Shown piece by piece: positions 4,141 to 21,714 of a DNA stretch of 44,773 nucleotides (position 1 is its first letter; every line of letters starts with the position of its first letter). The stretch is taken from NCBI GenBank assembly GCA_016196565.1, contig JACPXK010000017.1, forward strand, positions 1 to 44,773, read 5' to 3'. The notes beneath the pieces were generated by a model that was given only the letters and a program-made list of their open reading frames with translations, was not told the DNA's origin and searched no databases. A program made the translations under genes and the position numbers. The DNA comes from Candidatus Omnitrophota bacterium. Lineage in GTDB: Bacteria > Omnitrophota > Omnitrophia > Omnitrophales > Aquincolibacteriaceae.

Positions 4141-7100
4141 ATGAAATCAAAACTTAAAACCCCAGCGGCCTTAAAGCGCCTACTTTCATTTTGGATTTTA
4201 ATAGTCTTCCTTATAAGCAATACTTTTCCATACCCTGTTTACGGCGCAAGTCCAGCAGTTGAAGCCAGTTTAAAGATTTCCCCCGAAAATCTAGCTGCCA
4301 TTCAAATTCCCCAAAATATCGGAAAGATTCAGGAATTCCATCAAGGAAAATCCAGCCAGGTCGTCGTGCTCGTTCAAGATGCCCATGCCATTCCGGATGC
4401 CCAGCGAAGCATTCAGAAAATCATCGAGCATTTTCAAAAAGAGTATGGCGTCGGCTTAATCGCCCTTGAAGGGGCTTCCGAGGAATTAGACGCGCGCATT
4501 TTTAGAAGTTTTCCGGACAAAGGGATTCTCAAGCGTGTTTTCGAGGAGTATTTTGAAAAGGGTGAATTGAGCGGAAGTGTTGCCGCCGCCATTTTCTCTA
4601 ATGTCGGTGGCGGCAAGCCGGCCTTTTTTAAAGGCGTTGAAGATTGGCCGCTTTATGAAGAAGGTATCGGTCTTTATCTTAAGGCCTCAAAAGAGGAAGG
4701 GTCTTACGGGGCGAAAATCGCGGAATTAAAAAAAGAAATTCAGAAGAAAAAAGCCGAGGTTTATTCCAAAGAGCTTCTGGACTTAGACCGTTCCCTGGAA
4801 AGCTTTCATGCCCGTCACGAAAACCTGGCCGCCGTATTAAAGAAGTTTGCTGCTATACGCCTGCCTGAAAAAGGCACCGAGCTTGCCTTGCTGGTAGAGG
4901 AAATTCTTCGGGAAGGGGAAGACAAAAAGCTTCTGGAGTCGGAGGTTGAAGGTTTAGCGAAAAAGATGCAAACGTTATTGAAAAAAGGCCGGAAAGATAT
5001 TAAGGCATTTGATCGAAACGCATTTAATCAAAAATATCAGGAATTCCAGACTTCTCAAATTGCCCCGGAGGCCTTCGCCCTTTTTCTTAAGGAAATCGCG
5101 GCCAAACAAAATCTTCCCCTTCGATTTTCTCCTTATGTAGAGGAACTTATCCATAAACAAAAACAGATGCGAAATATTGAAGGGACCGAGATCTTCCGTG
5201 AGTTCGAAGTTTATAGCCGATCCGTTAAAGAAAGCCTTTTTCGCAGCGATGAGGAAAGAAAACTGGATCAATCCAGCCATGAGCTTGAACTTCTCGAACG
5301 TTTTGCCCGTTTAGAGCTAAGCCGCGAGGATTGGAATGAATTAAATGCTTTGTCCTTGCGAGCCCCGGAGGGGCGAAGCAATCTCAGAGAAAATCTAAAA
5401 TCTCATTTCAATTTTTACCGCAATGCCCAAAAAAGGGAATCGGCGCTTTTCGGCAATTTGCTTTCGCTGATGAAACAAAAAAAGTCGAACGCTTCGATTT
5501 TTGTGGCCGGCGGATTTCACACCGAAGGCCTGACCCGGTTATTGAAGGAACAAGGTATTTCTTATCTTCTTCTGATGCCCCAAATTAAGTCCCTTCCCGA
5601 AACGGATTATTACCGCGAGCATATGAATGGAAATGTTTCCTGGAAAAATTATTTAAAGGCCGAGAACGGAAAAATCAATTTGTATCAAGCCTTTGTGCGG
5701 GCGACCCGTGACAAACTTCTTACTGGTCACTCGTCACTTTTGAAAATTTGGCGCGATCAAATCATCCGGGATTTGGCCGTGGAAAGGCGCGCCGCAGCGG
5801 CCCATGACTACACGGCTTTTATTGATGAAGTTTCGAAAAATAAAAGGGCGGACCAATTTCTGGCTCCCTGGCAAATCAAAGTCGATCGTTTTCTTAAAAA
5901 TCTCCGCCGGCTTGAAGAAAACCATCAACTCACCGAACAAAATGTCCTTAAAATTTTAAATCCGTCTATGGCTATCGGACTTTTGGATGTGGCGCCTTTC
6001 CAACGCCGCCTTTTTGTTCCCGATGATCTCATCGGCCTCGATTCCCGCTCTGAAACGCGGATGGAGAGCGAAAATCCTTACTTAAATAAAGATCTTATTC
6101 CAAAGCATAAACAGGCATTTTTAGAAGCTATTCACCGGCTTGAAAGAGAGCTTTTTGACAAAAAAGGAATAACCTTCGATCAAAATCCCTCGGTTAAAGA
6201 TCTTGCAGAAGTGATTCAGCCGCCATCTTCGGGCTTAGAGCTTGTTTATGCAAAAGCGTTTTTTAATATGGGCAAGGTTCTGGGTATTTGGGAAATTGCT
6301 GAGGCGGAAAAAGGAGACGATGCCGGGGCTACGATAAAAATCCAAAAGGTAAATCGGAATATTCTGCCGTCCTTGACGGATTCAGAAGAAGTCATGGCAG
6401 ATGAAACCGTTCAGGGGATGAGGGCCGGGATCCATAGAATTAAGCAAATACTCGAACATCGTGCTAAAGGAGGAAAACCTATCGTATTAACTTTATTGGG
6501 CGGAAACGATAAAACCTCGGAAAAATTGGCGCGAGAGATTTCAACAAGCGGGATACCCGGTATTCCGAGTATTGTGGTGATGCCTGGTGCTGAGTTTGTA
6601 GCTCGTGGAGGGATACGAGATGGTGGCGGCGAGAATTTTTTCTTTTTCTCAAGCCAGCCGGACAGTTACTTTATCCCTAGGACTTCTTTTGCGGAATATC
6701 CAGAAAACTGGTTAGATTTCAACGGATTTCAAGGTCGCCTTGCCCAAGCTTTAAGCTTCCACTCGCTTGTTATTTTGACAGGAGTTCCAAGCGAAGTGCT
6801 TTTAAGAAACAGCGATGTTTCTCCTTTGCGTGTGAGAATACTTTCTTCTTCTAAGAGAAGCGAACTTCTTGGATATTTACAAAACGCCATTGATATTTCG
6901 AAAGCGGATTTGATGATTACCGAAAATTTTCCAACCGATGAGGAAGGAATCTCCCGCTCCGAAACGCGAACCCCCCTCCCCCTCAAATTTGATACGATCA
7001 AGGCGCTTGAGACGGAGCTAAAAGAGCGAGGGGTAGACGAAGAGGTCTTCACTGCAGTTCTTTCCACGGTAGTTGCTTCCCTTAGCAAACCCCTGAATAT

Positions 7101-10100
7101 TTCAATCGTCTTAACGCCTCGTGGCAATAGCGAGCAAACCATTTTAATTTATGACCGTAAAAACGGCGATCTTTGGTTATTACCTTTTAATCCTTTTGAT
7201 AACACCGGCAGAATGGTTGGCAACAATACAAAAAAGCTAATGAATGTTGGCAAGGTTCCTAACATTGGGGCTTTTAATTTAATATTGGAGAATGGCTGGA
7301 AACCATATGTCCTTGCGTTTAATTATGATAAAAAGCAGGTCTTTTATTTTGAAATCCCGATGGGTAAAGGATCTAAAAAACCTTACAATTTAAGTTGGAA
7401 CATCGGACCGATTTCTGACAACACGCCGCCCTACAAACTTCGATTAGATGATCGATATGTTTCTGTGGGAGGAAAAAGCTATTCGGTTTATGGAGAACTT
7501 TATGACGGAAGGATCGATGATAGCCCTGTACTTACGGGTTCCAGCGACGATTATAAAGGCCAGAATCCCTATCACCAACCGACATTTCCACCTGATCCGA
7601 AAGAAAAAACCGCATATTATTCGTTCCTACCCGATGGTGAATTAGCTGCAGGAGTGGGAGGCCGAGCGCAAGTCTTGACCGACGCACAATTGACGGAAGC
7701 TAAGCAGCAACTTGCCCCATTTTTAAATAAAATTGGCTTTTCCGAAGAACAGCTTGTTTCTCATCTGGGCGGGGATCTCGATGGTTGGACATTAGAAGGG
7801 TTTTATGTGGAAGGCGATATAACTCAAGGCATTTTTGAAACTGAAGATCTTCCATTTAAATGGAAAGTAAAAGATTGGCATCTGTTATTTCGCGAAAAAG
7901 AAACAGTCACTCCACAATTAGAACAAAGAGGCGAGAAGCTATCAGTATTAGGAAGAACGGAGTATGTTTATTTGGTTGATCAAAATGGAAAGACGCAACA
8001 TGTTGATTTGGGCAGCAACTTACTCACGACTCATTACCGAATTTTCTCCATTCATGACCAAGCCGATTTACAATTCCTCGCTAATCTGAAAAATCCTTAC
8101 AACGCAAAAGAACTTAACCGCTCCGAAACGCGGACGATGCGAAGAACGGCGTCTGCCCTTATTCTCCTTTTTGGTGCCGGGATTACCGCTGCCGTAGCGC
8201 TTCCTCTGCATGCGGGGTTGACAAAGTTTTTGAATATCGAGCCCAACGGCTTGCTAAGTGATGCAGTTTTGGTAATAACCAGCACTTCTACTATCGGCGG
8301 CTTGATTTTATTGGGCCGATATCTAACACGCCGCAGGCCTGATAAAGATTTTCCTCCCGACAATTCCCGCTCCGAAACACGGGCGACCAAGCAGAGACGA
8401 ATAGTAACCGAAAAAGATTTCTTAAAGAGAAATAGAAACATCCTAAACGCCGCATTGTCTGATTTCTTGCAATTCTCAGCGTCTGGCAATGATGAATGGA
8501 AATATTCATTTTCTGATCTCCCACAATTCGTAGCTTCTGGCTATAAATCGAAATCTTCTCGTTATCAAACTGCGATCGAGACTTTTCTTCGTCTAAGAGT
8601 TAAAGGGGCCATCCCTTTCTTAATAGAACAGATCAATCTTCTAATAAGCCATACAGAGATTTATGGATACGATAAAGAGAATAAAGATGATGTGAAAAGA
8701 AATGAAGATTTTAAAAAGATTAAAAGTATGCTTGAATTGCTTTTCGTGGAAGAAGGGCATGTTCCGTACGTTTCATGGTCAGGAATAGTAGGAAACCCGA
8801 TGGCATTTTTGTTGTTAGACGAAGAACTAGAGACCCTCGTAGAAGAATTAGAGAATCAAAAGATCACAAGAGTCAATGAAGACAAGCTGTTGGAGGCCAA
8901 CAGGCCGGTCTTTAGTACCGCAATATTTAATTTATCGAAATTCTTACATTGGTCTAATGGTGGTGAGTTCATTTCTTATCCGTGGAACGCACACTCTGAA
9001 GCCTTGGAAACATTCTTAAGTTCTAAAGACAAACCGGGACTTTATCGAGACGCGATCATGACTTTTTTTCGTCTAAGAAATGAAGGCGCTATTCCTTACC
9101 TAATCGAGCAAATCACTTATTTCCAACGCGGAACTGACAGTAGAATGCTTTACAAAACATTCGCCATACTTAACCTTTTACGCTCCGAAACGCGGACGGA
9201 TAAAAAGAAACTCTCCACATTGGATGAATTGGTTGCTTATATGGATAGCCGCCGGGATTTTTCTACCTATGATGGGACTAGGCGTTATTACCCAACCGGC
9301 GAACCGGAAGTCAGCGAAGAGCACCCCTATAGAGAATGGCTTAAGGCGGAACGGCCGGTGCTGACTTATCACAACTTAAAACTTAAAGATGATAACGACC
9401 GGCGATTCGGTGACTTGGAGTTTTATACGGAGTCGTCAGGCACCGCCGCGTCTAAGCAAATTTTTCAATTTAATTTTATTTTGTATCCGGAGACCGGGAA
9501 AAGAAACAACGCGCTCTCTATTGAAATTTTCGATTCAAAAGAAGGCCCCCGGACGGATAAAGAAACCTCATTTGATTTGGAAGTTGATTCCTTTGAAGTT
9601 CCTCTAGACCCTTCACTGCCTCTCCATCTTGTTTTTAATGTGCCGTCCGTCCCTCAAGGATTGGCCGAAATATTTCGCAGCGCCGGCCTTGATATGGGGC
9701 ACTTTGACCTCAAAGTCCAGGGCATGGAGGAGGCTGCGGGCGAATCGTCAGAATTTGTTTCTACGGACATTACCGTTTCCATTGTGGAACAGGGGCAACG
9801 CTCCGAAACGCGGGCAAATGCCGATAAAAAAGTTCCTGTGCAAGTAATTTCTCTTCCTAGTAAAAGAGAATTAATGAGGCTGCTGGCAAATCGATATTCC
9901 GCGGGAAAAATGTTTAATTTCTACGGATCGAGCATGGAGTGGAAATCAAAGGGGAGAACGATCGCTATTAAACAAGGAAGCTATACGGATGATATTCCTT
10001 ATCTTTTTCTGAGTATCTCTTTGCAAGGAAAACGGGTTTTGACGGGCCGGGGGCGTTCAGAAGAAGAAAAAACAGTATTCGACAGTTATGTTGATGAGGG

Positions 10101-13100
10101 GTCACCCTATGGTGAAGGGGGTTCTGGATCCGTATCTTTTAATTCTCCCGAAACAAACGTGTCTTTCGGGGTGAAAAATCTGCAAAAAGCAATTTATCTC
10201 GTTGTGACGGCATCAGAATTAGGCATCCCATCCTCAGCAGGTAATATCGAAATTCTTTTTCTGGACACGCATTCGCGTTCCTTGAAACATTCCCGGGTTT
10301 TACGTGTCGCCGAAGACTTGTTCCAGTACCACAATGGCCAGAAATCGTATCACCTAAAGAAACAAAAAAATGTTCGCTTTGTCGTTTTTGCAAATTTAAG
10401 CAAATATGCTAGTTCCGCTCCCGACCAGACGCCAGAAAGTAGAAGATATTATGCTCTTATAAAAGTTTTGAAACCTTTGATCCCCCGCTCCGAAGTGAAG
10501 AGCGAAACGAGAACGGGAAAAAAAGATTCAGATATCGATAAGGCGCTTATTGACGTGGTAAGGCTGGGGCAAAACGTTAGAGATCGAGTTGCCGCCATTG
10601 AAGCATTGGGGAATCGAAACGTCCGTGCCGTTGTGCCGGTGCTTCATCGGATTTTGAGTGATTATTCTAATAGAAACAAAGAAGAAACCGGTCCCAATCA
10701 AAGGGCCGTGAAATTAAAATTGCCATTAGGCGCGGAAGAAGAAAACCAGTTAATCAAAGCCAGCCTTGAGGCACTCGGAAAAATTATGGACCGGCGTTCC
10801 ATCCCTTATTTGATTAATTTCGCAAAAGTTGTACAACCGGTACTTGATTGGTATGAATTGAAATTAAAGGTACTGGCTATTCTGGCGGATTTTCGCGATA
10901 TCCGGGCAGCCGGGGTTTTTGCCGTCTTTGTTGAAGATTTGACAGGCTCGATTTCGCGCCGCACGGAAGAAGAAGACAAGGTGCTTGGTAATATTGCCGG
11001 GGCTTTTTATGCCATGAAATCTTCGCCGGAGATTATTGACATTATCATTAATTTTCTCAGAAGCCCTGTTTCGCAGTGGGAGACCCAATCTAAGGATTTA
11101 TTAAGCGTTGCTGTCAGAATTCTTGCCGATTCCGGCGATCCTCGTACCGAACAAATTTTCCGGAATATTTTACGCAGCACATCAGACTATAGACTAAAAG
11201 GCGGCGATTCGCTTTTTCCGGGTTTGTACAACATGGTTTTGGATGCTTTGAGCGGTGTGCGTACTCTCGCGGCGGAAAAGCTTTTAAAAGATGTGGTTGT
11301 GAGTGCTTCAAAGCCAAAGCAAGGAAGATCATCCGTCACCAAAAATTTAAGTGACGAAAAAAGATGGAACGCAGGATTTGATAGCGCCGAAATTCTGTTG
11401 AAGGATTTTAAAAGCCATGAGGCTGAAAGAATCGCAATCCGGTTCGCGATTTCAAGCAGCATTGTACATTCCGAATCGGTTCGATCTCTTCTAGTTCGTC
11501 ATGGCCGGGCTGAAGCGGCAATCCCGGAGCTCGTTGGCTTGTTTCGAACCTCCGGCATACAAGGCATGCACTTTTATCAAAACATACGCTTTGCCGTCAA
11601 AACGCTTCATGATTTTAACTGGCAGCCGGAAGGCGTCATACCGGAACTTTTAAAATTGCTTCGAAGCCCCCAATGGGAAATCCGGCAATTTGCCGCGGAA
11701 ACAATACGGGATTTTAAACTGGAACCAAAAGATGGCCAAGACCGTATCCATTATTTTTTTGGTCTTGGATCTTGGAAAAATCTTGTTATGGCTGGACCTA
11801 GCGCCCTTCCTCTATTGAGAAAAGCCTTACGAGATTCTAATGAAAATATTAGTCTAGGCGCCGCTCGAGCAATTCTTGAAATGGCAACCGGCTCCAAAAC
11901 GGAAGGGGCCGATGAATCGGCAGGGCCTCAATTAGCTGCGGGCGGACAAGCGAAAAGCGAAGTACGCGCAGGGCGAACGGACATTCCGGCAAAAAGTCAA
12001 TTAAGCCCGCAATTTTCCCCCAGAAATTATGGTTATGTAGAGACTAGCGAAGGTGTCCCGGCGGGTCAGGAATATGACCGGGTTCAGCGGCCGAGCGATC
12101 ACTTTACAGATTATGCCGAGGAGCATTCCCCCAAAATCGCCATTTTTCCCAGTTCACTGATTGCATCCAGCAAAAAGCTTTCCCGGGATATTCGCCGCGC
12201 GGGAGAATTAGAAGTCAATGTGCCTCAATTTAGAAATTTGCTGGGTAAAACACTTCTTCACCTTCTTAATAAAAAGGCGCGAAGCCCCGAAGAAGATAAA
12301 ATTCTGAGCTATTTTCAACTCATACAATCCGTTTTTCAAACCACGGGTTTTTCGGGACCTTTCTTGGACCAAATGCAGCAAGCGCGCGATTTATCGATTT
12401 TGGAACAAACGGAAATTCAATTAAAGGTGGAAGAAGGGGTTAAGGCTTATTTCACGCAGCCGACGCAGCAAGATTTAATCAGCTATTTTATGCCGCATTT
12501 TGCCCGCAATTTTAAAGAAGCCATCGTTGATCTTGCCAAGGCCCAAGGTTTTTACGGCGAAAACGCCATGCTCGCGGCCTATTACCGCGCCTTTCAACTT
12601 TTAGTAGGCATTACTTTTCCTCTCGACCCTCCGGGCAAGCAAAATTTCGGCGGCCAAAAACCCGCGCTTTCTCCCAAAGAAAGCCTGAAACTCGGTTTGA
12701 CTTTCTTCCGCGTACTTTATCAATCCGGAGCCTATGAAGAAATCGCCAAAGAGCAGGATTATTTGTCCGATGTCGGCCCTGAAAATTATGCCGCCAACCT
12801 TACCCGGATTTTGCGCGAAAATGATTCTATTCTCATTGAAGCCATTCAAGGTAGCGGCGATCTTACTGATTTTATTAATGCTCATTTTGATCATCTGGTG
12901 GAAAAACTTGCTTCGGAACCTCGCGTTGGAAAAACAGAAGCCGGAATGGCCCTTAATATCGATGGAATTCCCGTTGTGTTTTTCGAGGGAGGGCGGCCGT
13001 CCGGTTTTACCCCGCTCACTCAGATTGGGAGTATGGACGCCAAAATCATTCAAAACGTAGGCGCGCAAAAAGTCCGTGCTTTAATGGAAAAAATCAAACT

Positions 13101-16100
13101 AGAGAGGAATCTTGAAGCGGCAGATATTCCCAAATTGATTGAGGCCGGTGCCGCCAATTTGAATTGGGTGACGGATCTTGCCGAAGCAATGGCGGACAAA
13201 CCCATGGCACATCTTACCCCGGCGGAAGTACTTTTAAAAGCTGAAGGGGTCGCCTTAAAAACCGCCAGAGATCATTTTTCCGAAGGGGCTTACGATCTTT
13301 ACAGGCTTTTGGCGGCTAGCGATTATCTTCTGGATGCGGAACAAACAGTCAAAGCCCGTCAAAGAGCGATCGTTTATGAAGAAACTGTGGCCATGGCTTC
13401 ATTTGGTGATTTCGAATCTGTTGACGTCAGGCGAGATCCCGATATGGTTTATGTTCCCATGCTCCCGGATGTTTACAGCCTTCTTGGGCTCGCTGCGGCA
13501 AAGGAGGGGAAGCATTTGAAAAAATATTTTGGCCGGATTCCTACCGGCATTCCTTCCGCTAGGAAAATCACGGCGAATCTAGAAGCCCTTCAAGAACTTC
13601 AAGAAGTTTTCCAAACCCTTACGGCTGAAACGCGTGGTTGGGAAGCCGCAACTCAGGGCAGAAAAGACCGTGAACAATTAGTTCCCATTGAAAATCGTGA
13701 CCTCGTAAAACGCCTTTATGAGAACTGGCTTCGCCGCGGCCGAATCGCGAACGCGAAACCCGTCACTTTTCCGGCCATGACTTTTGGAATTCATGACATT
13801 GATTCTGGGGTTCATTATGAAGGCCAGGTGATGTTTGCCGTGGGCGGCCCCTTAGAGGGAACTGTCCGTACGATGGATGGGCAAGATGCCAATTTTGCCG
13901 CTTATCATCTTTGGCGCATGGTCAATGACGGCGGCGAAACGATTACTACGGCCGAACATACGAATCTTATTAATGAACCTCGAAATGCCGGCGCTTTCCA
14001 GACGGACCAAGGCATTGCCGAACTTTATAAAGTCCGCCTTGCCGAAACTTATAATCCCGGGAATATTCTTTCCGTTTCTCGCTCCGAAGCGAAGAGCGAA
14101 ACTCGGAGTGCGGATCAAATGCTTCAACGCAATGCGCAAGTTTTTGCTCATCGTAAAGGTTATGCAGCATCGACTACAGGCAAACAGGTTTGGCAAGGAG
14201 TTCATAGCCGTTTAAGCGCAGTACAGTCTGAGGACGACGTTCCCATCGGTCCCCGCGAATGGCGTGAATTTCTCCGGCCTATTTTGGAAGCGCTTAACAT
14301 TCCGGATTGGCTCGACACTTATTTATCCGAGGTTGTACAAGAGGCCAAATTACAACATGTTCAGGCAGCGATTAAGGCCTTACGATTTATTCGGGGTAAG
14401 GCCCAACGAGCCGGTCAAAATGAAATTTTATCTCAGGCCGGTCAATTCTTGTCCGTGCTTACAGGGGATGACTCTGCGGGGCATGACTATAGCGAAATTG
14501 ACGATGCAACAATTGAAACAGTCCGAAGGTTTATTGATGACCAGTGGTGGAAAGGGCTTTACCAAGAAAAAGGCGTTTATCCTCCGATTGCCAGGACCAT
14601 ACTTGGGAAACTCATTCCTCCGGGAAAGCCCAGCGGATCCAATGATTTGGATTTGCCGTTTGTTTCTTTTCGCCAAGATGGGCCTAACAGTCAGCTTGAT
14701 CCTCATGAAGAAGTGATATTGATTCAAACGATGGGAACGCCTCGCGGCATTTATGACCGGCTTGGCGTTCAAATTTTATTTCCAAGAACCGGCTTGGCGT
14801 ATTGGGCCATTCCCGAATTGGACTCGACCTTGAGCGGATTTCAGGCCATACCGCCTCTTGAATACCTGACTCATGGACATCGCCATCTTGACGGCAATCA
14901 AGACCTATGGTTTCGAGAAAACTTTGATACGCTTTTTGCCGATGTGGTTGTCCGGCCCGAAAATCAAGATGGTTTATTATCCTTCGTCTCCAATTTTTCG
15001 TCCTCCCATGGAATTCCGATTCAAAATATTTTGAGATTGAAAATTACGGGTCAAGTGGGATTGGATTTGACAGATTCTGATTGGGAGCAAAAGGCCCGTG
15101 AGCGGCGGGTTGATTCTTCTGACGAAATTACTCTCTTTTACCGCCCTTATCAAGGTCCCTTGACCATTCAGCTAGCGCCAGAGCCGCATAAGGGCGCTCT
15201 CGCTCCCGAGGGCGACGATTTACAAAAATTGCAGCGGGGCCAATATTATGAATTCATCACCGATGGCAGTGGTATGCAAAGAGCTATTTATTACCGGATT
15301 GCTGAAAATACCAATTTAGGAAACGTTCTTCAGGCAGTACGGGAAGCCACAAGGTATTTTTCTGCCAGGCTCGTAAGTACTGAAATTGGTTCTGAAGATC
15401 CCCGGCGCAGGGAAGAAATTTTTCATCGAGCCCAAGAATTTCAACAATCTCAACAACCTCACAAATTAATGCCTCTCTTTTCTGGCGACATTGCGATCTT
15501 TGAATTTAATATTTCTTTACGCCAAACCGAAGAGCCGTGGTTTTCAGAAAATCCACCGCTCGTTGTCAGATCTGAGACACGCATGCCGGGATGGCAAATG
15601 ATGATAGGGTTGGCATTCATTGGCGGGCTTTGGATTGGGCAAGGAGGCATCGCAGAAGCCCAAAATATTAAAAATTTGAATGCGGAAATCAGTTATGTGC
15701 AGTTTGGATTAGACTTTAATACCGGAGAACTTGCCCGGCTGGTTAAGGAAGGCAAATTAATCCGGCAAGCGAAGAGCGAAACGCGGTCCCTCTATGATGA
15801 GGCAATGAATGCTTTCACTCAAAGATTGGAGAGCTTGGAGCAAAGAATCAACGCGTTTCTTCGGCATACGCAGTCATTATCTTTTTATCGGATTTATCTT
15901 ACGGCCTTAGGACATTTAGATATAAGGCATTCTGACACAAAGGCCCAATTGGCGGTGTTCGGAACGATGGGAGAAGGAGCGATTATCGATATTAGCAAGC
16001 TTTACCCCACTTCCCTGGTAAGTCACGTGCTTAACTCCTATTTGAGACCTCCGTCTCAAAAATGGGAGGGAGAAGTTCGGCCCCATGTTTTTCTCGTGCC

Positions 16101-19100
16101 GTTTTGGGTACCAAGAGCTGCTTTTCAAAATATTTTTGCGGCTGTAGAAGATGCCCTGTCCGATCAAGCAAACTTCTTTTTTGAAGAAAATCCAACCTGG
16201 AAAAAAATAGTAGGAAAATACAACGCAGAGCAGAATCGTGTTGCCGTGGATATTTGGGACGACGCAGGAAAAACCGTTATTGATTTGATCGATTGGAGGA
16301 AGCCCGGAGACGAAACTCACAGCGGACTTCCTAAACTTGTAAGAGCACGGGAAGAGACAAACAACGAATTGGTCCAACAGCTCAACTTGGCTTTCACAGC
16401 TTTGGGTTATAATTCCGATCATATTATTGCGTTTCCTTCGCGCGATCCTAAGGTCATTGAGTTTCGATATAACGATCCTGAATTTGAAAGAATCCCTTCT
16501 CGTTTTAATTTGACAACGGATTTAGAGGCCCTCGAAAATTTCCTTGAGCGCGCCCTTAATCTCTCCGAAAGCCCGCTTGAGCGCTCCTCCCGCTCGGAAG
16601 CGCGCATAAAGTTGAAGGTGCTTGTGGGAGAATTGGCTTCGGTGAATGTGAAAGGAGAGCCTGAAGTTATTGATTATAGTTCTGACAACGGGCAAACATT
16701 CGCGGCCAGGTTAGAAAAGCTGGCGATGCAGAGCCATTACGCTGCCATCGCGGTTGCGATGTCGGCAAGCGTGCGTGACGATTTAATCCGGGAACCTTTT
16801 AGAAGCAAACAATTAAAAGTCCTTGAATGGTTCATACTTCCTGCAAAACCCGCTCAAAGAAAAAAAGAGATCCTTAGTATTTTAAGTTTTATTCATGATG
16901 GCCGCGCAAAACAGAAAACCCGCCGGCTTGGTTCTTTGCCCACGCATTATCAAATCGATAAAAATGTTGAATTTAGGGTAGACGAAGGGAAGTCCGTACC
17001 TAGAGATTTAAAAACCGGGGTTCACTCAATGCTTTTGATAAGCCCGGCAAATTTGGGACCGGAGCCGGTTCCTGAAGCCGCAAAAAAAGGCGGCCGCGGA
17101 CCTAAAGGAGATACCGGCGGGCTGCCTTCCAAACGTCCTAAATTTCCTCCGGGGAAATCCGGAAGTGAAGCGAAATCCGTACCGCCGCCTTCTGAAGAAA
17201 TTGAAACAGGGTCTTCTTCCGTTGAAGAAGGAATTCGTGAAGGTCTGAGGCCCGTATCTCGTAGCGGATCAAGTTCCTCTCCCCGCTCCGAAACGCGGTT
17301 GACGGTTGAAGAGTCCCCGGTAGAACCCAAAGGCATTCTTGGGCCTCAAGGGGATGAGTTGTCAAGATTACAACGGGGCCAATACTATCATTTCGAAACA
17401 GATGCAACCGGTTTGCTACAAACGATTTATTACCGGGTTGCCGAAACTCCCATTTTAGGACAAGTCATTTCTGCGATAAGGCAGGCCACAGGGTATCGTT
17501 CTTCCAAAATTGTAGGCACTGAAGTTGGCGCTGAGGATCCTGAGCGAAAGGCTGAAATCGAGCGTCAATTTGAAGAGATCAAACAATCCCCCTCTTTATT
17601 GCCCTTGCAGCCTGGTGATTTAGTTTTATTGAAATTTAATACTTCCTTATTCGAATCTGCGTCAGTCGAAACTGCATCGTCCTCCCGCTCCGAAACACGG
17701 ACTTTAAAGCCTCAAATAGGCGTAGAAATACTTCAATACGAAGAATTATTTCAAGCACCTGAACCTAAAGAAAACGTGCTGCCTTTAATCGTTGATGGAT
17801 TGGCTAGATTGGCTGACCGCTATAACGACGTTCAGGCTGTAGGAATTACTGAGGCCAAGGATATTATGAGAAATGGCATGCCTGATCCTGAGGACCTGAA
17901 AGATAAAATAGCTTGGTGGCCCGGAGGAGATCTTTCCGAAGTTAAGAAATATTTACAGCAAAACTATCCGTCAGACCAAGGATATTCTTATGGAATTCTT
18001 ACCTTGAATTTTACCGGGGAGCATTATGAAACAGGATATGAATTTGGCCGGATGATTACGATTATCCCGATTCGCAGGACGTGGAAACGTTTCGTGGGGG
18101 TTGGGGCGTTTGATAGCCGCGATGTTTTGATGGATCTTGTGAAGCATCAGCCGGTTGGTTCCGAAGATACGGGATATCCGAAAGTTAACGTGAGATATGA
18201 TGAGCAGGGGGACAAATTCATCTTTAACAACGAACTCGAGCTTAGATTCGGTCCGAAGGGCCCTTGGGCACGTCCCATTTATATCTCGCATCTTCAAGGG
18301 TCATTGATTTATACCGTCAATGAGTATCTTTTGGGGATTGGAGAAGGCTGGCCGGAATCAAATGGTTCGGGCGAAGTTTACAGTCCTATCGGACTCGTTT
18401 TTTGGCGTTCCCCAAAACAAGCTTTGGAGAAAAGGACAATTAAATTCTCTCCGGCCATTCGTATTGAAGAAGCCTCTGGCCCCATTTTCGGATTCGAAAC
18501 ACCCTCTGATTTTATAGAAAGTCCTCAAAGAAGAAATTACTTGTTCCGCACCGGGCAGATTCGTTCCGGTCGGATCCGCTCTGAGGCGCGGATGCAAGAA
18601 GGGCCTTTTGTTGGATTTGACGGTTTCTATCCTCCCGTTGTGCTTGATCGGTTAGATTATCGGGTGGTGAAACGTGATAAAGAACCCGCGACCTATGTTT
18701 TTAAAAGGGAGCTTTACATTCGATTTCAGGCACCGGTTTATGACGACAAGGGCAATCCGGAGATTTCGAGACTCACGATGGAAATTTGGAAAAAGGATGA
18801 GGAAGACAATAAAGTTGTCCTTAACATCAATTCTCTACGCGGCATTGGAAATGGAGACATTGACAAAATCATTTTATATTTTGACAAATCCGCCGTGGAG
18901 CAGCTTAATGCGAAGGGTATTCAGTCAGGGGGAAAAGTACAGATAGAAGTTTCTTCTCCGATCGGTACCTCCAACCAACGCCAATCGGAGATGATACAAA
19001 ATAATCCGCCTCTTGTTAAGAAACAGCGGCCAGGGGACAAGGTCAAACAAGCGCGAACAGTCAGAAAAGCGGCAAAAGCAGTTCAAGAATTAGAAAAGGC

Positions 19101-21714
19101 ATCTTTATCCAGACAAAGAGTAAACGTCACGAAGCCGATGAAACAGCATGGAATCTTGTACATTACGGAAACCATAAGAGAATTTGCCAATGATTTTGAC
19201 GGCCGGTTTAATCCAACGCCTGAGATTCGCAATGGCTTTAATGTGCAATCGCTGGCTGTCAGGGATCAGATGATAAAATTTGCCTTGGAACAATCCCGGC
19301 AGAACGTGCCGCTTGCGTACGGCCTCCTAAAATTCTTAACGGGTCAAATCATGCAAGCCCCCAAAAATACTGCCTATCACAAGGCTATTTATCAACGTTA
19401 TTTAGATTTGCTGAGAATTGCGAATGTCAGTGTTAAACGCACAGGGCAAACGGGAGCGCATAATCGGAAACTTGAAATACTGATTCGCGCACCCGAAAAA
19501 TCTAACTTGAAATGGGAATCTTTGATTAGCATCACAGACATTGGCAACAAATCCTTCGGGCAAGTGAATTCGGAAATTGTGGAGGAGCTTCGCCGAATTC
19601 GGAAAAACGGTTTTATTCAGGAAATAGTCCCGATTACTTTTAATTCCGGTACCATTCAATTCGGCCCTAAAGAAGAATCCCGTGCCTTAAAGGTTACCAA
19701 TGATGATAATCAGCTTGAACAGTTGCTTTCAATGTCTCTGCACACTCTAGGCCGCTCTGAGGCGCGCAAAGATGAAAATGAGCTGACGCCGTCGTTATTA
19801 ACCAGCCCCGTTGAGATTGAGGCGCAAGAACATTTTGATTTCAGGTATCGAGGGTCTTTCGAGGTTTCTCCGCGAGGAAAGCAAACCCTTCAATTTAGCT
19901 ATGATTCTGCCGCCCGTTTATTTGGCTTTACGGTAAAAGGTACCCCACACAACCAGGGAGTCGTAAAAACTCAATCTTATCAAATCGAGATTGTTCCGGG
20001 AGATGAGGAGCCTGTGGTTCGGGTTACCAATTTGAATAAAAAAGATGAAGGTGAAGCTTCGTCCGGAAAAAACGTCACCGTGTGGCCGGTGACGTCGCCT
20101 ATTCTTACGCCGGGACCAAGCTCCGATACGTTGGCGGACGCAGCCCTCGAATTAAAAGATATTACCGATTCCTCTTCATCGGCGTCCCCATTGCCGCCGG
20201 CGGCTGAACAGGAAGAGCAAAAAAGTGAAAGTCAGGTCATGACCGAGGCCCTCGCACCCCTTCGGGCTGTGATGGAAAGAGCACGGGTCATTGCCGACAA
20301 TACTTGGAATGTGGATCATGCCAATATTTATTATGACATCACGCATACGGCGTTTGATTTAATGCTCCGCCTCAAACAAAGCGGAAGTGTTGATGACGCA
20401 AAAAGCGCCGTGGAAATTTTTCTCGAAAAACAAATAGACATGCCCGCAGGGATGAATCAAAAAGCGGCCGTGCGCACCTTAAAAGAAGTCGTCGCCAATC
20501 CTCCTCCTGCCGTTCCTCAATCCCGCTCCGAAGCGAGAAAAAAGACGAAGGATCAATTATTGGATAGTAAAGAGAAAGAATTGACGCAGCATGGTGTTGG
20601 TACTCGCAATGTTTATCAAGGAGAATCTTTGCATTTCGAAAAAGGCGAAGAAAGAGAGCTTGAGCTTTTTGATGGAAATAACCCAAAACCCCTTACAACG
20701 GTTTCCTTGCGTAGCCAAAAGGAAAGAGATGCTGTTTGGGCAAAAATTAAAGAATTTGGCCGTGTTGAACGCGTTATGTCTCATTATTTTTTATTCACGA
20801 AGATGAATTTGCTCAGGGTTGTTAATGGAAAAGTTAAGGTCCTAAACTTTCAAGGAGATTGGCTTGGCCCATCTTCAGTCGATCTCGTTCTTGATGACCA
20901 GCAGAGAGGTTATGGCGCTTACTCCGAGATGCGGGTTCGGCGGGCGGCCAATATCGTGGCCCGTTCTTTCATGGGAGAAGCGCTGGCTACGCGATCTGAA
21001 GCCAGGGAAATCGCAAACGCGGGTTTTCGTGGTTTTGAGGGGCCTCTTCGGCAAGCTGAAAAAAGATTTGCAAGAGAGGATCTTATAAAAGCCGGGCGGG
21101 GATTTGATTCCGTCACGCGGGGAATTAATCAGCCGGTTATGCTTCACGATCAACCCTCGGAAGATCAGTTCCGTGTTATGGGTGCTGATGATGTTGAAAC
21201 ATGGGTAAGTTACGCGAGGGGTGCCGTTAATTCAAATAAATATGTTACGGTCCGTTTGCCCAATTACGCGGTTGCGGGCTCCAACCGGAAAGTCGCGGAT
21301 TTAGTGGCAAGCCAGAAAACGAATAAAAATGATCCTGTGGAATGGAAACCTGTTCCGGGAAGCGATGACATTGTTCTTTATCATAAAGACCGCCCTGGCG
21401 GTGTTTCTTTCGCCGAAGAGCCGACGCTTGTCATACGCTCCGAATCGAGAAATGACGGAACATCCCGGCTTGATCCGCATAAGTACTTCACGGGCGCCGC
21501 GGTTTCTTCTAAAGACAGGCCGGGATTTATTATGGCGGGGCTTCTTTTAATCGCAGATTCCCTTCACAAGCAAATTCCAGATTTTATTGCCCGGTCTGAG
21601 GCGCGTGACGGCGCAGGTTTTGTTTACCATCTTAGGAATGCCGATTCTTTGTCACGCTTGTCCCAGCTTGGCAACCTGCTTGTCTTCAGGCGAGCCACCG
21701 CATCCGCCGCTTAA
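4141..21714 (+). CDS. Giant secreted multi-segment protein (5,857 aa) punctuated by RSETR-type motifs
   Basis: One uninterrupted 17.6-kb frame. It opens with Lys-rich MKSKLKTPAALKR and a hydrophobic stretch ending at VYGA, a signal peptide or anchor. Residues about 70-530 form a ChaN/TraB/Tiki-like region (LVQDAH, IALEGASEE, VAGGFHTEG). Residues about 740-930 contain a degenerate P-loop-like GGNDKTSEKLA; no kinase activity can be claimed. Two TM-like helices lie at about 1335-1403, and a second signal-like hydrophobic stretch at 3815-3841. HEAT-like repeats cover about 1415-1680 and 2125-2600. Duplicated 105-residue modules lie at about 3687-3793 and 4400-4505, and a Pro/Ser/Gly-rich linker at about 4300-4381. 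Many remaining segments are beta-rich and unrecognised. Twenty RSETR-like motifs split it into 21 segments. No PEP-CTERM or other C-terminal sorting signal is seen. Omnitrophota are known for giant proteins; adhesion, predation or polyprotein roles are speculation. Confidence 0.9.
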   Translation: MKSKLKTPAALKRLLSFWILIVFLISNTFPYPVYGASPAVEASLKISPENLAAIQIPQNIGKIQEFHQGKSSQVVVLVQDAHAIPDAQRSIQKIIEHFQKEYGVGLIALEGASEELDARIFRSFPDKGILKRVFEEYFEKGELSGSVAAAIFSNVGGGKPAFFKGVEDWPLYEEGIGLYLKASKEEGSYGAKIAELKKEIQKKKAEVYSKELLDLDRSLESFHARHENLAAVLKKFAAIRLPEKGTELALLVEEILREGEDKKLLESEVEGLAKKMQTLLKKGRKDIKAFDRNAFNQKYQEFQTSQIAPEAFALFLKEIAAKQNLPLRFSPYVEELIHKQKQMRNIEGTEIFREFEVYSRSVKESLFRSDEERKLDQSSHELELLERFARLELSREDWNELNALSLRAPEGRSNLRENLKSHFNFYRNAQKRESALFGNLLSLMKQKKSNASIFVAGGFHTEGLTRLLKEQGISYLLLMPQIKSLPETDYYREHMNGNVSWKNYLKAENGKINLYQAFVRATRDKLLTGHSSLLKIWRDQIIRDLAVERRAAAAHDYTAFIDEVSKNKRADQFLAPWQIKVDRFLKNLRRLEENHQLTEQNVLKILNPSMAIGLLDVAPFQRRLFVPDDLIGLDSRSETRMESENPYLNKDLIPKHKQAFLEAIHRLERELFDKKGITFDQNPSVKDLAEVIQPPSSGLELVYAKAFFNMGKVLGIWEIAEAEKGDDAGATIKIQKVNRNILPSLTDSEEVMADETVQGMRAGIHRIKQILEHRAKGGKPIVLTLLGGNDKTSEKLAREISTSGIPGIPSIVVMPGAEFVARGGIRDGGGENFFFFSSQPDSYFIPRTSFAEYPENWLDFNGFQGRLAQALSFHSLVILTGVPSEVLLRNSDVSPLRVRILSSSKRSELLGYLQNAIDISKADLMITENFPTDEEGISRSETRTPLPLKFDTIKALETELKERGVDEEVFTAVLSTVVASLSKPLNISIVLTPRGNSEQTILIYDRKNGDLWLLPFNPFDNTGRMVGNNTKKLMNVGKVPNIGAFNLILENGWKPYVLAFNYDKKQVFYFEIPMGKGSKKPYNLSWNIGPISDNTPPYKLRLDDRYVSVGGKSYSVYGELYDGRIDDSPVLTGSSDDYKGQNPYHQPTFPPDPKEKTAYYSFLPDGELAAGVGGRAQVLTDAQLTEAKQQLAPFLNKIGFSEEQLVSHLGGDLDGWTLEGFYVEGDITQGIFETEDLPFKWKVKDWHLLFREKETVTPQLEQRGEKLSVLGRTEYVYLVDQNGKTQHVDLGSNLLTTHYRIFSIHDQADLQFLANLKNPYNAKELNRSETRTMRRTASALILLFGAGITAAVALPLHAGLTKFLNIEPNGLLSDAVLVITSTSTIGGLILLGRYLTRRRPDKDFPPDNSRSETRATKQRRIVTEKDFLKRNRNILNAALSDFLQFSASGNDEWKYSFSDLPQFVASGYKSKSSRYQTAIETFLRLRVKGAIPFLIEQINLLISHTEIYGYDKENKDDVKRNEDFKKIKSMLELLFVEEGHVPYVSWSGIVGNPMAFLLLDEELETLVEELENQKITRVNEDKLLEANRPVFSTAIFNLSKFLHWSNGGEFISYPWNAHSEALETFLSSKDKPGLYRDAIMTFFRLRNEGAIPYLIEQITYFQRGTDSRMLYKTFAILNLLRSETRTDKKKLSTLDELVAYMDSRRDFSTYDGTRRYYPTGEPEVSEEHPYREWLKAERPVLTYHNLKLKDDNDRRFGDLEFYTESSGTAASKQIFQFNFILYPETGKRNNALSIEIFDSKEGPRTDKETSFDLEVDSFEVPLDPSLPLHLVFNVPSVPQGLAEIFRSAGLDMGHFDLKVQGMEEAAGESSEFVSTDITVSIVEQGQRSETRANADKKVPVQVISLPSKRELMRLLANRYSAGKMFNFYGSSMEWKSKGRTIAIKQGSYTDDIPYLFLSISLQGKRVLTGRGRSEEEKTVFDSYVDEGSPYGEGGSGSVSFNSPETNVSFGVKNLQKAIYLVVTASELGIPSSAGNIEILFLDTHSRSLKHSRVLRVAEDLFQYHNGQKSYHLKKQKNVRFVVFANLSKYASSAPDQTPESRRYYALIKVLKPLIPRSEVKSETRTGKKDSDIDKALIDVVRLGQNVRDRVAAIEALGNRNVRAVVPVLHRILSDYSNRNKEETGPNQRAVKLKLPLGAEEENQLIKASLEALGKIMDRRSIPYLINFAKVVQPVLDWYELKLKVLAILADFRDIRAAGVFAVFVEDLTGSISRRTEEEDKVLGNIAGAFYAMKSSPEIIDIIINFLRSPVSQWETQSKDLLSVAVRILADSGDPRTEQIFRNILRSTSDYRLKGGDSLFPGLYNMVLDALSGVRTLAAEKLLKDVVVSASKPKQGRSSVTKNLSDEKRWNAGFDSAEILLKDFKSHEAERIAIRFAISSSIVHSESVRSLLVRHGRAEAAIPELVGLFRTSGIQGMHFYQNIRFAVKTLHDFNWQPEGVIPELLKLLRSPQWEIRQFAAETIRDFKLEPKDGQDRIHYFFGLGSWKNLVMAGPSALPLLRKALRDSNENISLGAARAILEMATGSKTEGADESAGPQLAAGGQAKSEVRAGRTDIPAKSQLSPQFSPRNYGYVETSEGVPAGQEYDRVQRPSDHFTDYAEEHSPKIAIFPSSLIASSKKLSRDIRRAGELEVNVPQFRNLLGKTLLHLLNKKARSPEEDKILSYFQLIQSVFQTTGFSGPFLDQMQQARDLSILEQTEIQLKVEEGVKAYFTQPTQQDLISYFMPHFARNFKEAIVDLAKAQGFYGENAMLAAYYRAFQLLVGITFPLDPPGKQNFGGQKPALSPKESLKLGLTFFRVLYQSGAYEEIAKEQDYLSDVGPENYAANLTRILRENDSILIEAIQGSGDLTDFINAHFDHLVEKLASEPRVGKTEAGMALNIDGIPVVFFEGGRPSGFTPLTQIGSMDAKIIQNVGAQKVRALMEKIKLERNLEAADIPKLIEAGAANLNWVTDLAEAMADKPMAHLTPAEVLLKAEGVALKTARDHFSEGAYDLYRLLAASDYLLDAEQTVKARQRAIVYEETVAMASFGDFESVDVRRDPDMVYVPMLPDVYSLLGLAAAKEGKHLKKYFGRIPTGIPSARKITANLEALQELQEVFQTLTAETRGWEAATQGRKDREQLVPIENRDLVKRLYENWLRRGRIANAKPVTFPAMTFGIHDIDSGVHYEGQVMFAVGGPLEGTVRTMDGQDANFAAYHLWRMVNDGGETITTAEHTNLINEPRNAGAFQTDQGIAELYKVRLAETYNPGNILSVSRSEAKSETRSADQMLQRNAQVFAHRKGYAASTTGKQVWQGVHSRLSAVQSEDDVPIGPREWREFLRPILEALNIPDWLDTYLSEVVQEAKLQHVQAAIKALRFIRGKAQRAGQNEILSQAGQFLSVLTGDDSAGHDYSEIDDATIETVRRFIDDQWWKGLYQEKGVYPPIARTILGKLIPPGKPSGSNDLDLPFVSFRQDGPNSQLDPHEEVILIQTMGTPRGIYDRLGVQILFPRTGLAYWAIPELDSTLSGFQAIPPLEYLTHGHRHLDGNQDLWFRENFDTLFADVVVRPENQDGLLSFVSNFSSSHGIPIQNILRLKITGQVGLDLTDSDWEQKARERRVDSSDEITLFYRPYQGPLTIQLAPEPHKGALAPEGDDLQKLQRGQYYEFITDGSGMQRAIYYRIAENTNLGNVLQAVREATRYFSARLVSTEIGSEDPRRREEIFHRAQEFQQSQQPHKLMPLFSGDIAIFEFNISLRQTEEPWFSENPPLVVRSETRMPGWQMMIGLAFIGGLWIGQGGIAEAQNIKNLNAEISYVQFGLDFNTGELARLVKEGKLIRQAKSETRSLYDEAMNAFTQRLESLEQRINAFLRHTQSLSFYRIYLTALGHLDIRHSDTKAQLAVFGTMGEGAIIDISKLYPTSLVSHVLNSYLRPPSQKWEGEVRPHVFLVPFWVPRAAFQNIFAAVEDALSDQANFFFEENPTWKKIVGKYNAEQNRVAVDIWDDAGKTVIDLIDWRKPGDETHSGLPKLVRAREETNNELVQQLNLAFTALGYNSDHIIAFPSRDPKVIEFRYNDPEFERIPSRFNLTTDLEALENFLERALNLSESPLERSSRSEARIKLKVLVGELASVNVKGEPEVIDYSSDNGQTFAARLEKLAMQSHYAAIAVAMSASVRDDLIREPFRSKQLKVLEWFILPAKPAQRKKEILSILSFIHDGRAKQKTRRLGSLPTHYQIDKNVEFRVDEGKSVPRDLKTGVHSMLLISPANLGPEPVPEAAKKGGRGPKGDTGGLPSKRPKFPPGKSGSEAKSVPPPSEEIETGSSSVEEGIREGLRPVSRSGSSSSPRSETRLTVEESPVEPKGILGPQGDELSRLQRGQYYHFETDATGLLQTIYYRVAETPILGQVISAIRQATGYRSSKIVGTEVGAEDPERKAEIERQFEEIKQSPSLLPLQPGDLVLLKFNTSLFESASVETASSSRSETRTLKPQIGVEILQYEELFQAPEPKENVLPLIVDGLARLADRYNDVQAVGITEAKDIMRNGMPDPEDLKDKIAWWPGGDLSEVKKYLQQNYPSDQGYSYGILTLNFTGEHYETGYEFGRMITIIPIRRTWKRFVGVGAFDSRDVLMDLVKHQPVGSEDTGYPKVNVRYDEQGDKFIFNNELELRFGPKGPWARPIYISHLQGSLIYTVNEYLLGIGEGWPESNGSGEVYSPIGLVFWRSPKQALEKRTIKFSPAIRIEEASGPIFGFETPSDFIESPQRRNYLFRTGQIRSGRIRSEARMQEGPFVGFDGFYPPVVLDRLDYRVVKRDKEPATYVFKRELYIRFQAPVYDDKGNPEISRLTMEIWKKDEEDNKVVLNINSLRGIGNGDIDKIILYFDKSAVEQLNAKGIQSGGKVQIEVSSPIGTSNQRQSEMIQNNPPLVKKQRPGDKVKQARTVRKAAKAVQELEKASLSRQRVNVTKPMKQHGILYITETIREFANDFDGRFNPTPEIRNGFNVQSLAVRDQMIKFALEQSRQNVPLAYGLLKFLTGQIMQAPKNTAYHKAIYQRYLDLLRIANVSVKRTGQTGAHNRKLEILIRAPEKSNLKWESLISITDIGNKSFGQVNSEIVEELRRIRKNGFIQEIVPITFNSGTIQFGPKEESRALKVTNDDNQLEQLLSMSLHTLGRSEARKDENELTPSLLTSPVEIEAQEHFDFRYRGSFEVSPRGKQTLQFSYDSAARLFGFTVKGTPHNQGVVKTQSYQIEIVPGDEEPVVRVTNLNKKDEGEASSGKNVTVWPVTSPILTPGPSSDTLADAALELKDITDSSSSASPLPPAAEQEEQKSESQVMTEALAPLRAVMERARVIADNTWNVDHANIYYDITHTAFDLMLRLKQSGSVDDAKSAVEIFLEKQIDMPAGMNQKAAVRTLKEVVANPPPAVPQSRSEARKKTKDQLLDSKEKELTQHGVGTRNVYQGESLHFEKGEERELELFDGNNPKPLTTVSLRSQKERDAVWAKIKEFGRVERVMSHYFLFTKMNLLRVVNGKVKVLNFQGDWLGPSSVDLVLDDQQRGYGAYSEMRVRRAANIVARSFMGEALATRSEAREIANAGFRGFEGPLRQAEKRFAREDLIKAGRGFDSVTRGINQPVMLHDQPSEDQFRVMGADDVETWVSYARGAVNSNKYVTVRLPNYAVAGSNRKVADLVASQKTNKNDPVEWKPVPGSDDIVLYHKDRPGGVSFAEEPTLVIRSESRNDGTSRLDPHKYFTGAAVSSKDRPGFIMAGLLLIADSLHKQIPDFIARSEARDGAGFVYHLRNADSLSRLSQLGNLLVFRRATASAA
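5352..5387. repeat. REP-like element inside the giant gene
   Basis: GTCCTTGC (5352-5359, one mismatch to the GTCATTGC arm elsewhere in the window) is followed by a GCGAGCCCC/GGGGCG palindrome and GCAATCTC. It is translated as part of SLRAPEGRSNLREN in the first segment of the giant protein, with no frame disruption. Confidence 0.6.
8119..8382 (+). other. Short two-helix membrane-like segment between two RSETR motifs
   Basis: Between motifs at 8119 and 8368 the protein reads TMRRTASALILLFGAG with a following hydrophobic run, then a second run (AVLVITSTSTIGGLILLG) ending in RRR. These are two predicted TM helices in a 78-residue segment, with positive charges at both ends. It resembles a small membrane protein captured within the giant frame. 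Confidence 0.55.
8452..8643 (+). repeat. Internal HEAT-like duplication, copy A
   Basis: It encodes LSDFL...AIETFLRLRVKGAIPFLIEQI. Copy B at 8929-9123 has NLSKFL...AIMTFFRLRNEGAIPYLIEQI. The shared core FxRLRxxGAIPxLIEQI points to a duplication of about 65 residues inside one segment (residues 1415-1680). Confidence 0.7.
8929..9123 (+). repeat. Internal HEAT-like duplication, copy B
   Basis: Partner of the copy at 8452-8643. The segment ends about 20 residues later at the next RSETR motif (9181). This part of the giant gene is noticeably more AT-rich than its flanks. Confidence 0.7.
10513..11952 (+). other. HEAT / PBS-lyase-like repeat region of the giant protein
   Basis: Residues about 2125-2604 contain repeated units of helix-turn-helix type: VRDRVAAIEALGNRNVRAVV, LIKASLEALGKIMDRRSIPY, AIPELVGLFR, VIPELLKLLRSPQWEIRQFA and ALPLLRKALRDSNENISLG. 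Such repeats form solenoid scaffolds for protein binding. The region is bounded by the long motif RSEVKSETR and the variant AKSEVR. Confidence 0.7.
15199..15519 (+). repeat. Duplicated 105-residue module, copy 1
   Basis: Residues 3687-3793, beginning LAPEGDDLQKLQRGQYYEF and ending GDIAIFEFNISL. Copy 2 (17338-17655) starts LGPQGDELSRLQRGQYYHF. Both copies sit just before an RSETR motif, so the module and motif were probably duplicated together. The function is not recognised; it looks like an alpha/beta ligand-binding domain. Confidence 0.8.
15568..15786 (+). other. Short segment with signal-peptide-like start between two motifs
   Basis: Directly after RSETR (15568-15582) comes MPGWQMMIGLAFIGGLWIG followed by AEAQ, which looks like a complete signal peptide with an AxA-type site. 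The 62-residue segment ends at AKSETR (15769). It resembles the N-terminus of a formerly independent secreted protein. Confidence 0.6.
17338..17655 (+). repeat. Duplicated 105-residue module, copy 2
   Basis: Residues 4400-4505. It shares RLQRGQYYxFxTDxxG, IYYRxAE, A(I/V)RxAT and TE(I/V)GxEDPxR with copy 1 at 15199-15519. It is bounded on both sides by RSETR motifs (17284 and 17686), so a whole segment is essentially this module. Confidence 0.8.

Follow-up and report, generated by a model that had tools for sequence, protein, structure and literature searches.

Giant proteins in part of the phylum Omnitrophota are divided at irregular intervals by a short peptide, which is referred to here as the separator. 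This sequence, which broadly reads [RKHQ]-x-E-[LMVATI]-R, is real. It occurs in a minority of Omnitrophota genomes, where, as judged from sequence, it is best explained as a mark of leader-bearing giants. The separator may be the cleavage site of an Arg-directed endoprotease, in which case the giants would be polyproteins; this reading is given a probability of about 0.5. The analysis starts from a stretch of 44,773 nucleotides of Candidatus Omnitrophota DNA (the window) and extends to giants from other genomes of the phylum.

All of the copies in the window are carried by a single open reading frame (ORF) of 5857 aa (17.6 kb; positions 4141–21714, forward strand). The initial annotation had counted 20 copies of [RK]SE[TAVS][RK] in this protein, and the motif search returns the same number of non-overlapping copies, every one of them in frame, over the span 6046–21606. 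The composition of the protein predicts 0.14 copies, and the maximum reached in 2000 shuffles is 3. Counting overlaps raises the number to 22, as two of the sites are doubled (RSEVKSETR at 10486–10512 and RSEAKSETR at 14080–14106). One extra match, at 17241, is out of frame, and the opposite strand contains none.

The ORF opens with a leader (aa 1–635; 4141–6045), which combines a conserved domain with an N-terminal hydrophobic stretch and is followed directly by the first separator, RSETR at 6046–6060. The same spelling recurs at 6955–6969, 8119–8133, 8368–8382, 9181–9195, 9799–9813, 15568–15582, 17284–17298, and 17686–17700. The remaining single copies read KSEVR (11953–11967), KSETR (15772–15786), RSESR (21436–21450), and RSEAR (16591–16605, 18577–18591, 19753–19767, 20524–20538, 20992–21006, and 21592–21606), the last of which is followed by a 35-aa C-terminal tail; all of these features are on the forward strand. 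Among the modules that lie between the separators, one of 78 aa (8134–8367) begins with TMRR and contains a predicted membrane (or signal-like) helix. HEAT-repeat families alone exceed the curated Pfam cut-offs in this ORF, and their best stretches fall inside one inter-separator segment (10513–11952). The unit LQRGQYYEF, noticed by eye in the translation of the module at 14107–15567, recurs as LQRGQYYHF in a 129-aa module with a separator on each side (17299–17685). A module of 63 aa (15583–15771) has a Met start and a stretch that looks signal-peptide-like by eye and was not flagged by the hydropathy scan. Nothing in the window reaches the gathering score of an Rfam family. Searches with aa 641–5640 of the giant recovered no homologue at E 0.001 in the protein collection, the phage collection held no near match to the window modules, and aa 641–3313 had no match in 26 motif-rich genomes, where an empty result is uninformative. 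Elsewhere in the window, an ORF at 754–2589 encodes an RsmB-like methyltransferase, of which residues 112–163 also match the TonB C-terminal domain model.

Many of the copies in the window had been described as having nearly fixed codons. The mean identity of the separator codons is 0.49, compared with 0.30 predicted from the gene's own codon usage and a top value of 0.38 in 300 simulations, while the flanks of the separators share no further fixed residues. It was also correctly stated that the motif is not a tandem repeat, as no array is found within the ORF and the head-to-tail repetition that characterizes a tandem-repeat protein is not seen.

The separator extends beyond this one gene. 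A second locus contains two giant ORFs with 11 copies of RSEL[RK], another contains two copies of [RK]SEMR, and the whole genome to which the former locus belongs (G001) has 218 matches to a DNA pattern for RSE(L or F)R, compared with 14 for the reversed pattern. When 384 Omnitrophota genomes were scanned at the DNA level, 37 were motif-rich, defined as at least 60 pattern matches and 2.5 times the control; this general pattern covers CGN and TCN codons only, such that other spellings and AT-rich genomes are missed, and three genomes below the threshold (G030, G060, and G100) contain the motif at the protein level. Among words of its kind, RSE.R ranks first in 13 of the 19 sets of giants (18 genomes and the window), second in four (G074, G014, G064, and G020), and below fourth in two (G050 and G036). 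The giant of G050 has few separators (3 [RK]SE.[RK] in 6666 aa). An apparent 35,113-aa frame with a leader in this genome (L061) is of unreliable length, and its readable part is separator-poor.

These comparisons show that the motif had been defined too narrowly by the initial annotation, as the real motif is wider and its residues 1, 2, and 4 differ by lineage. G001 uses RSELR and other genomes a mixed RSE[MVTALS]R; forms of the RAE[VA]R type are also used, with RAE.R found additionally in G014, G064, and G020. The fourth residue is Leu in almost all G001 copies and in those of G036, and is mixed in most other genomes. The fifth residue is Arg in all but six of the 334 copies (328) and Lys in those six, and Glu is at position 3 in every form found, although the search patterns require Glu there. 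Six below-threshold genomes that have a candidate protease (see below) and a leader were also read. The separator is [HR]xELR in G060 (29 R.ELR against 0.6 expected, and 16 H.ELR against 0.24), [RK]xELR in G030 (18 against 1.0 expected and 14 against 0.6), and [RQK]SE[LM]R in G100; the giants of the other three (G185, G254, and G186) have no separator-like word among their top words. Such a word is likewise missing from the giants of G039, G041, and G063, three motif-poor genomes, with a single [RK]SEF[RK] in G063. Single giants of G063, G092, and G018 match the broad pattern 0, 1, and 1 times, respectively. Several giants were read in G001, G030, G060, G100, and G185, and one stretch in most other genomes. 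Where several were read they agree, with RSELR throughout G001, [RKH]xELR-like forms in G030 and G060, and none in G185. The presence and type of the separator thus follow the genome rather than the single giant, which suggests one trans-acting reader. G185 has 42 leader matches, and its sampled giants (L155–L162) lack the known separator forms; they may use another device instead.

The conservation of the separator is at the level of protein. In 96,914 aa of G001 giants, from stretches that were chosen from motif matches, there are 129 copies of RSEL[RK] within 105 different 15-mers and no other fixed position. That the residues hold while the spelling varies indicates that selection acts on the protein. 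Across the 19 sets, TCN codons encode the Ser of RSE[LMVTAIS]R in 285 of 292 copies, compared with 58–72% of the other Ser codons of those giants. This bias may reflect either copies that are linked by descent or single-base steps from residues with NCN codons (Ala, Pro, and Thr). Taken together, the diversity of spelling and the Ser-codon bias are consistent with the spread of a short sequence that purifying selection subsequently kept. The residue that follows the motif is Ser, Thr, or Ala in 145 of 334 copies (20% expected, p = 5e-22), a preference that persists when G001 is left out (74 of 206, p = 1e-7), and Met is slightly enriched at this position (14 of 334, p = 0.006). Aromatic residues and Cys are depleted around the motif, the flanks are rich in Ser, Pro, and Gln and are disorder-like, and some G001 sites lie 9–30 residues apart. 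The Glu-x-Arg core after a mostly basic residue, together with these flanks, the small next residue, and the doubled sites, suggests something that looks like a processing site.

The positions of the copies were compared with conserved blocks, which were obtained from an all-against-all comparison of the sampled giants. Only one separator lies within the non-leader blocks (9,496 aa; 14.9 expected) and none within the leader blocks (18,152 aa; 28.5 expected). The claim that the copies sit exactly at changes of sequence character is therefore supported by homology, as conserved blocks are nearly free of separators, and weakly by composition (Jensen-Shannon divergence of 0.131 at 321 separators and 0.125 at 1200 random places in the sampled carrier giants, p = 0.004). 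Block ends are no closer to separators than are random places, most of the matches being leader to leader. Ordinary genes were also considered. In 18 stretches of G001 (282 ORFs, 113,182 aa), RSELR occurs twice, in ORFs of 4362 and 1029 aa, and [RK]SE.[RK] occurs four times where 7.7 are expected. Equal frequency of the motif inside folded domains and in other proteins, which the initial annotation had named among the grounds for refutation, is not seen in the homology blocks or in the ordinary genes of one genome, and this comparison does not refute the proposal. As in a polyprotein, borders within one ORF are marked by the site, the site is nearly absent inside modules (as represented by the conserved blocks), and it is rare in other proteins (as represented by the ordinary genes of G001).

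The leader contains a conserved domain that is common to giants of other Omnitrophota, including giants larger than that of the window. Residues 1–635 of the window giant match two loci, both on Candidatus Omnitrophota contigs, and the relatives of the leader in the protein collection are named as Omnitrophota, Omnitrophica, or plain 'bacterium'. Its N-terminus reads as a hydrophobic, signal-like stretch, which a 12-residue hydropathy window detects in 18 of 24 leader sequences; a helix scan with a longer window flagged few. The leader has a weak match to the fold of EreC and HopBA1, with a Z score within the range that unrelated models can reach, and Foldseek returned no match for it at E 0.001. 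A long helical insertion sets the leader apart from this EreA/ChaN/Tiki-like fold. Stand-alone leader-domain proteins of 702–710 aa are present in four motif-rich genomes (L204–L207), two of them with one broad-pattern match each, and are possible ancestors of the leader of the giants. The proposal that the separator is confined to giants with a long leader match was rejected, as the separator is also present in most of the short-match giants of G030, G060, and G001; one short-match G030 giant is near expectation (6 separators, 4.6 expected).

The segments between separators (n = 334) have a median length of 354 aa and include 18 HExxH motifs. The clearest case of a module bounded by separators is shared by G066 and G068, where 296 alignment columns are 31% identical, RSE[MV]R stands on both sides in both genomes, and the linkers are unalignable. 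An RHG motif suggests that this module is a histidine phosphatase. In G001, a Pfam scan of 113 of the 119 segments of at least 80 aa (80 in set A1 and 33 in set A2) returned 40 families for A1, of which 25 were listed, and nine for A2, with those listed found in one or two members each. The families include enolase, UDP-glucose/GDP-mannose dehydrogenase domains, PPDK, PEP-utilising domains, HPr, and response regulator, as well as methyltransferases, HAD hydrolase, Fic, and SNF2; PP2C, methyltransferase, and HAD domains are found in other G001 segments. Many segments have no Pfam match, including seven of the ten that were scanned singly. One 886-aa segment (L044:15945–18602) contains a circularly permuted enolase (C domain at 292–576, N domain at 617–808) that sits behind a weak M50-like stretch and whose catalytic residues, by eye, appear to be kept. 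An ordinary enolase is also encoded in G001, indicating that the enolase of the giant is a paralogue. The suggestion that a membrane or signal helix opens the modules was not borne out, as a helix is predicted in 32 of the 334 segments and the first one falls no more than 40 residues from the separator in 3, compared with 3.7 expected.

The initial annotation had offered three roles for the motif, namely a dedicated linker, a site for an Arg-directed protease, and an anchoring tag. Of this proposal, a dedicated separator stands, and it is concentrated in giants, avoids conserved blocks, and has processing-site features that end in Arg. In the preferred reading, a trans-acting Arg-directed endoprotease would recognize the separator and cut after its last Arg and before a small residue. 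The giant would be a polyprotein in which a leader with a signal-like start is followed by tens of modules that are released as separate proteins, and the doubled sites would be redundant cuts. A more far-reaching version, in which each genome makes hundreds of proteins from tens of leader-bearing giants strung from unrelated modules, enzymes among them, through one lineage-specific five-residue code and a single trans protease, with code and pocket drifting together between lineages, is less likely than not. Several observations weigh against cleavage: no protease is present in every carrier, the fourth residue of the separator is mixed in most genomes, some giants (in G050 and G030) have few separators, the signal-like leader implies export and yet several modules resemble cytoplasmic enzymes, and the features of flanks and spacing would also suit an exposed binding linker. 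The evidence for a sequence-specific reader suits a binder as well as a protease, and the motif could be an uncut linker that docks a chaperone, a secretion factor, or a surface-assembly factor while the giant works intact. Omnitrophota giant products are treated as whole proteins with roles in coating, adhesion, and predation in the part of PMC10066038 consulted. An uncut linker, however, poorly explains the Ser, Thr, or Ala after the last Arg, the overlapping doubles, and the closely spaced sites of G001, and is considered rather unlikely.

The TCN spelling of Ser and the likeness of codons in the window imply that the copies are historically connected, as would be expected of an assembly scar, that is, a separator that travels with duplicated or recombined modules and persists because it serves as a homology seed in module shuffling rather than because it is read in the protein. 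The single-base NCN steps would, however, also explain the Ser codons, and a scar does not account for the 105 15-mers among the 129 G001 copies in which the residues are held, or for the in-frame position of 20 of the 21 matches in the window and their absence from the other strand; a scar is thus improbable. Separate proteins could also arise from one ORF through a protein-level motif by co-translational separation, in which the ribosome skips or stalls at the peptide, but the overlapping doubles and the small next residue are better suited to proteolysis. To our knowledge, the separator is unlike the known ribosome-skipping peptides, and co-translational separation is given very little weight. 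Chance or a low-complexity artefact is refuted by the 22 copies observed against 0.14 expected, as well as by the recurrence of the separator in other genomes, and its probability is negligible.

Proteases that could act on the separator were sought in these genomes. The results do not support the Arg proteases of clan CD as the common processor: caspase C14 is found in 2 of the 28 motif-rich genomes and in 1 of the 27 motif-poor ones, clostripain C11 in none of 55 (0 of 28 motif-rich), and gingipain C25 in none of 25 motif-bearing genomes and 1 of 8 others. A search for trypsin found matches in 33 of 55 genomes, which point to one small protease encoded by frames of approximately 240–320 aa. 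This protein has a Trypsin_2 domain with a His-Asp-Ser triad that is invariant in 27 aligned members, and its sequence reads as having a hydrophobic start. The PDB sequences that it matches best are of the HtrA type. Like HtrA/DegP (S1C), the protease has Trypsin_2 and the triad; it differs in that no PDZ family was found in the eight members scanned and in its active-Ser motif, which is mostly GDSG[S/C/T/A/G]P (one GNSGVP, in G186), whereas HtrA-type matches read GNSGGP (G014), GNSGGA (G022), and GSSGGA (G044). Among the best 120 of 806 matches in the protein collection, its close relatives number about 50 and rank ahead of the PDZ-bearing HtrA types; the seven of them that are named by organism are six Omnitrophota/Omnitrophica and one Verrucomicrobiae. 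In one motif-poor genome, a weak trypsin match (G095:C3:65233–65691) lies in an apparent 37,731-aa frame.

The distribution of this protease was compared with that of the separator. By the DNA criterion, 18 of the 37 motif-rich genomes have it, as do 24 of the 347 others, and these 24 include the motif-bearing G030, G060, and G100; this and the other genome-wide family comparisons ignore relatedness, and for the protease only the best candidates per genome were scored. At the protein level, 16 of 21 sampled genomes have it, and G014, G022, G046, G052, and G064 lack it; G052, which also has no enolase match, is perhaps an incomplete genome. Among eight genomes in which the sampled giants are motif-free, five are without the protease and three, which had been picked for having it, are with it. 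The residue six before the catalytic Ser was taken as the putative S1 residue by counting back in sequence rather than from a structure. An acidic residue stands there in 13 of the 23 proteases from genomes with the motif, six of these genomes being called motif-bearing by DNA count alone, compared with 2 of 25 in the other genomes (p = 0.0004, uncorrected for relatedness). The other 10 of 23 have His, Lys, Asn, Ser, or Gly at this position, and Glu is found there in G185, a genome without the motif in its sampled giants. Additionally, 10 of the 19 motif-rich genomes without the protease have no profile match even at E 0.001. Given these exceptions on both sides, the small PDZ-less trypsin-fold protease stays a candidate only for the enzyme that cuts the separator, and a doubtful one.

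The giant ORFs of Omnitrophota have been described as very long, poorly conserved, and sparse in annotated domains (Seymour et al. 2023, PMC10066038). The giants described here are from the same phylum; the window ORF, at 17.6 kb, falls below the 20 kb mark used in that study, and the separator motif, the leader family, and processing are not mentioned in the part of it consulted. The Lipocone paper (PMC12419801) reports Omnitrophota giants that combine polysaccharide enzymes, signalling domains, peptidases, methylases, and membrane segments, a mix much like that of the modules here; its consulted sections do not mention a separator or cleavage. More generally, the separator is not described in the sections consulted of the literature on Omnitrophota giants and bacterial polyproteins (PMC10066038, PMC12419801, PMC12057145, and PMC11573180).

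The separator is of practical use in that it predicts the putative cut points of each giant, which allows a direct test by mass spectrometry, and gives module borders for annotation and structure prediction. If cleavage is true, the bacterium would run polyprotein expression on a genome scale. The gingipain and HagA adhesin polyproteins of Porphyromonas gingivalis are exported, multi-domain proteins that are cut by Arg- and Lys-directed proteases. The giants of Omnitrophota differ from these in that C25 proteases are found in 0 of 25 motif-bearing genomes and in that one five-residue motif is common to unrelated giants. In viral polyproteins, one ORF encodes many modules with a short linear motif at their borders and a dedicated protease to cut them. 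In contrast to the viral case, the protease here is only a candidate and the system is cellular, with many giants per genome that carry unrelated cargo behind one type of separator.
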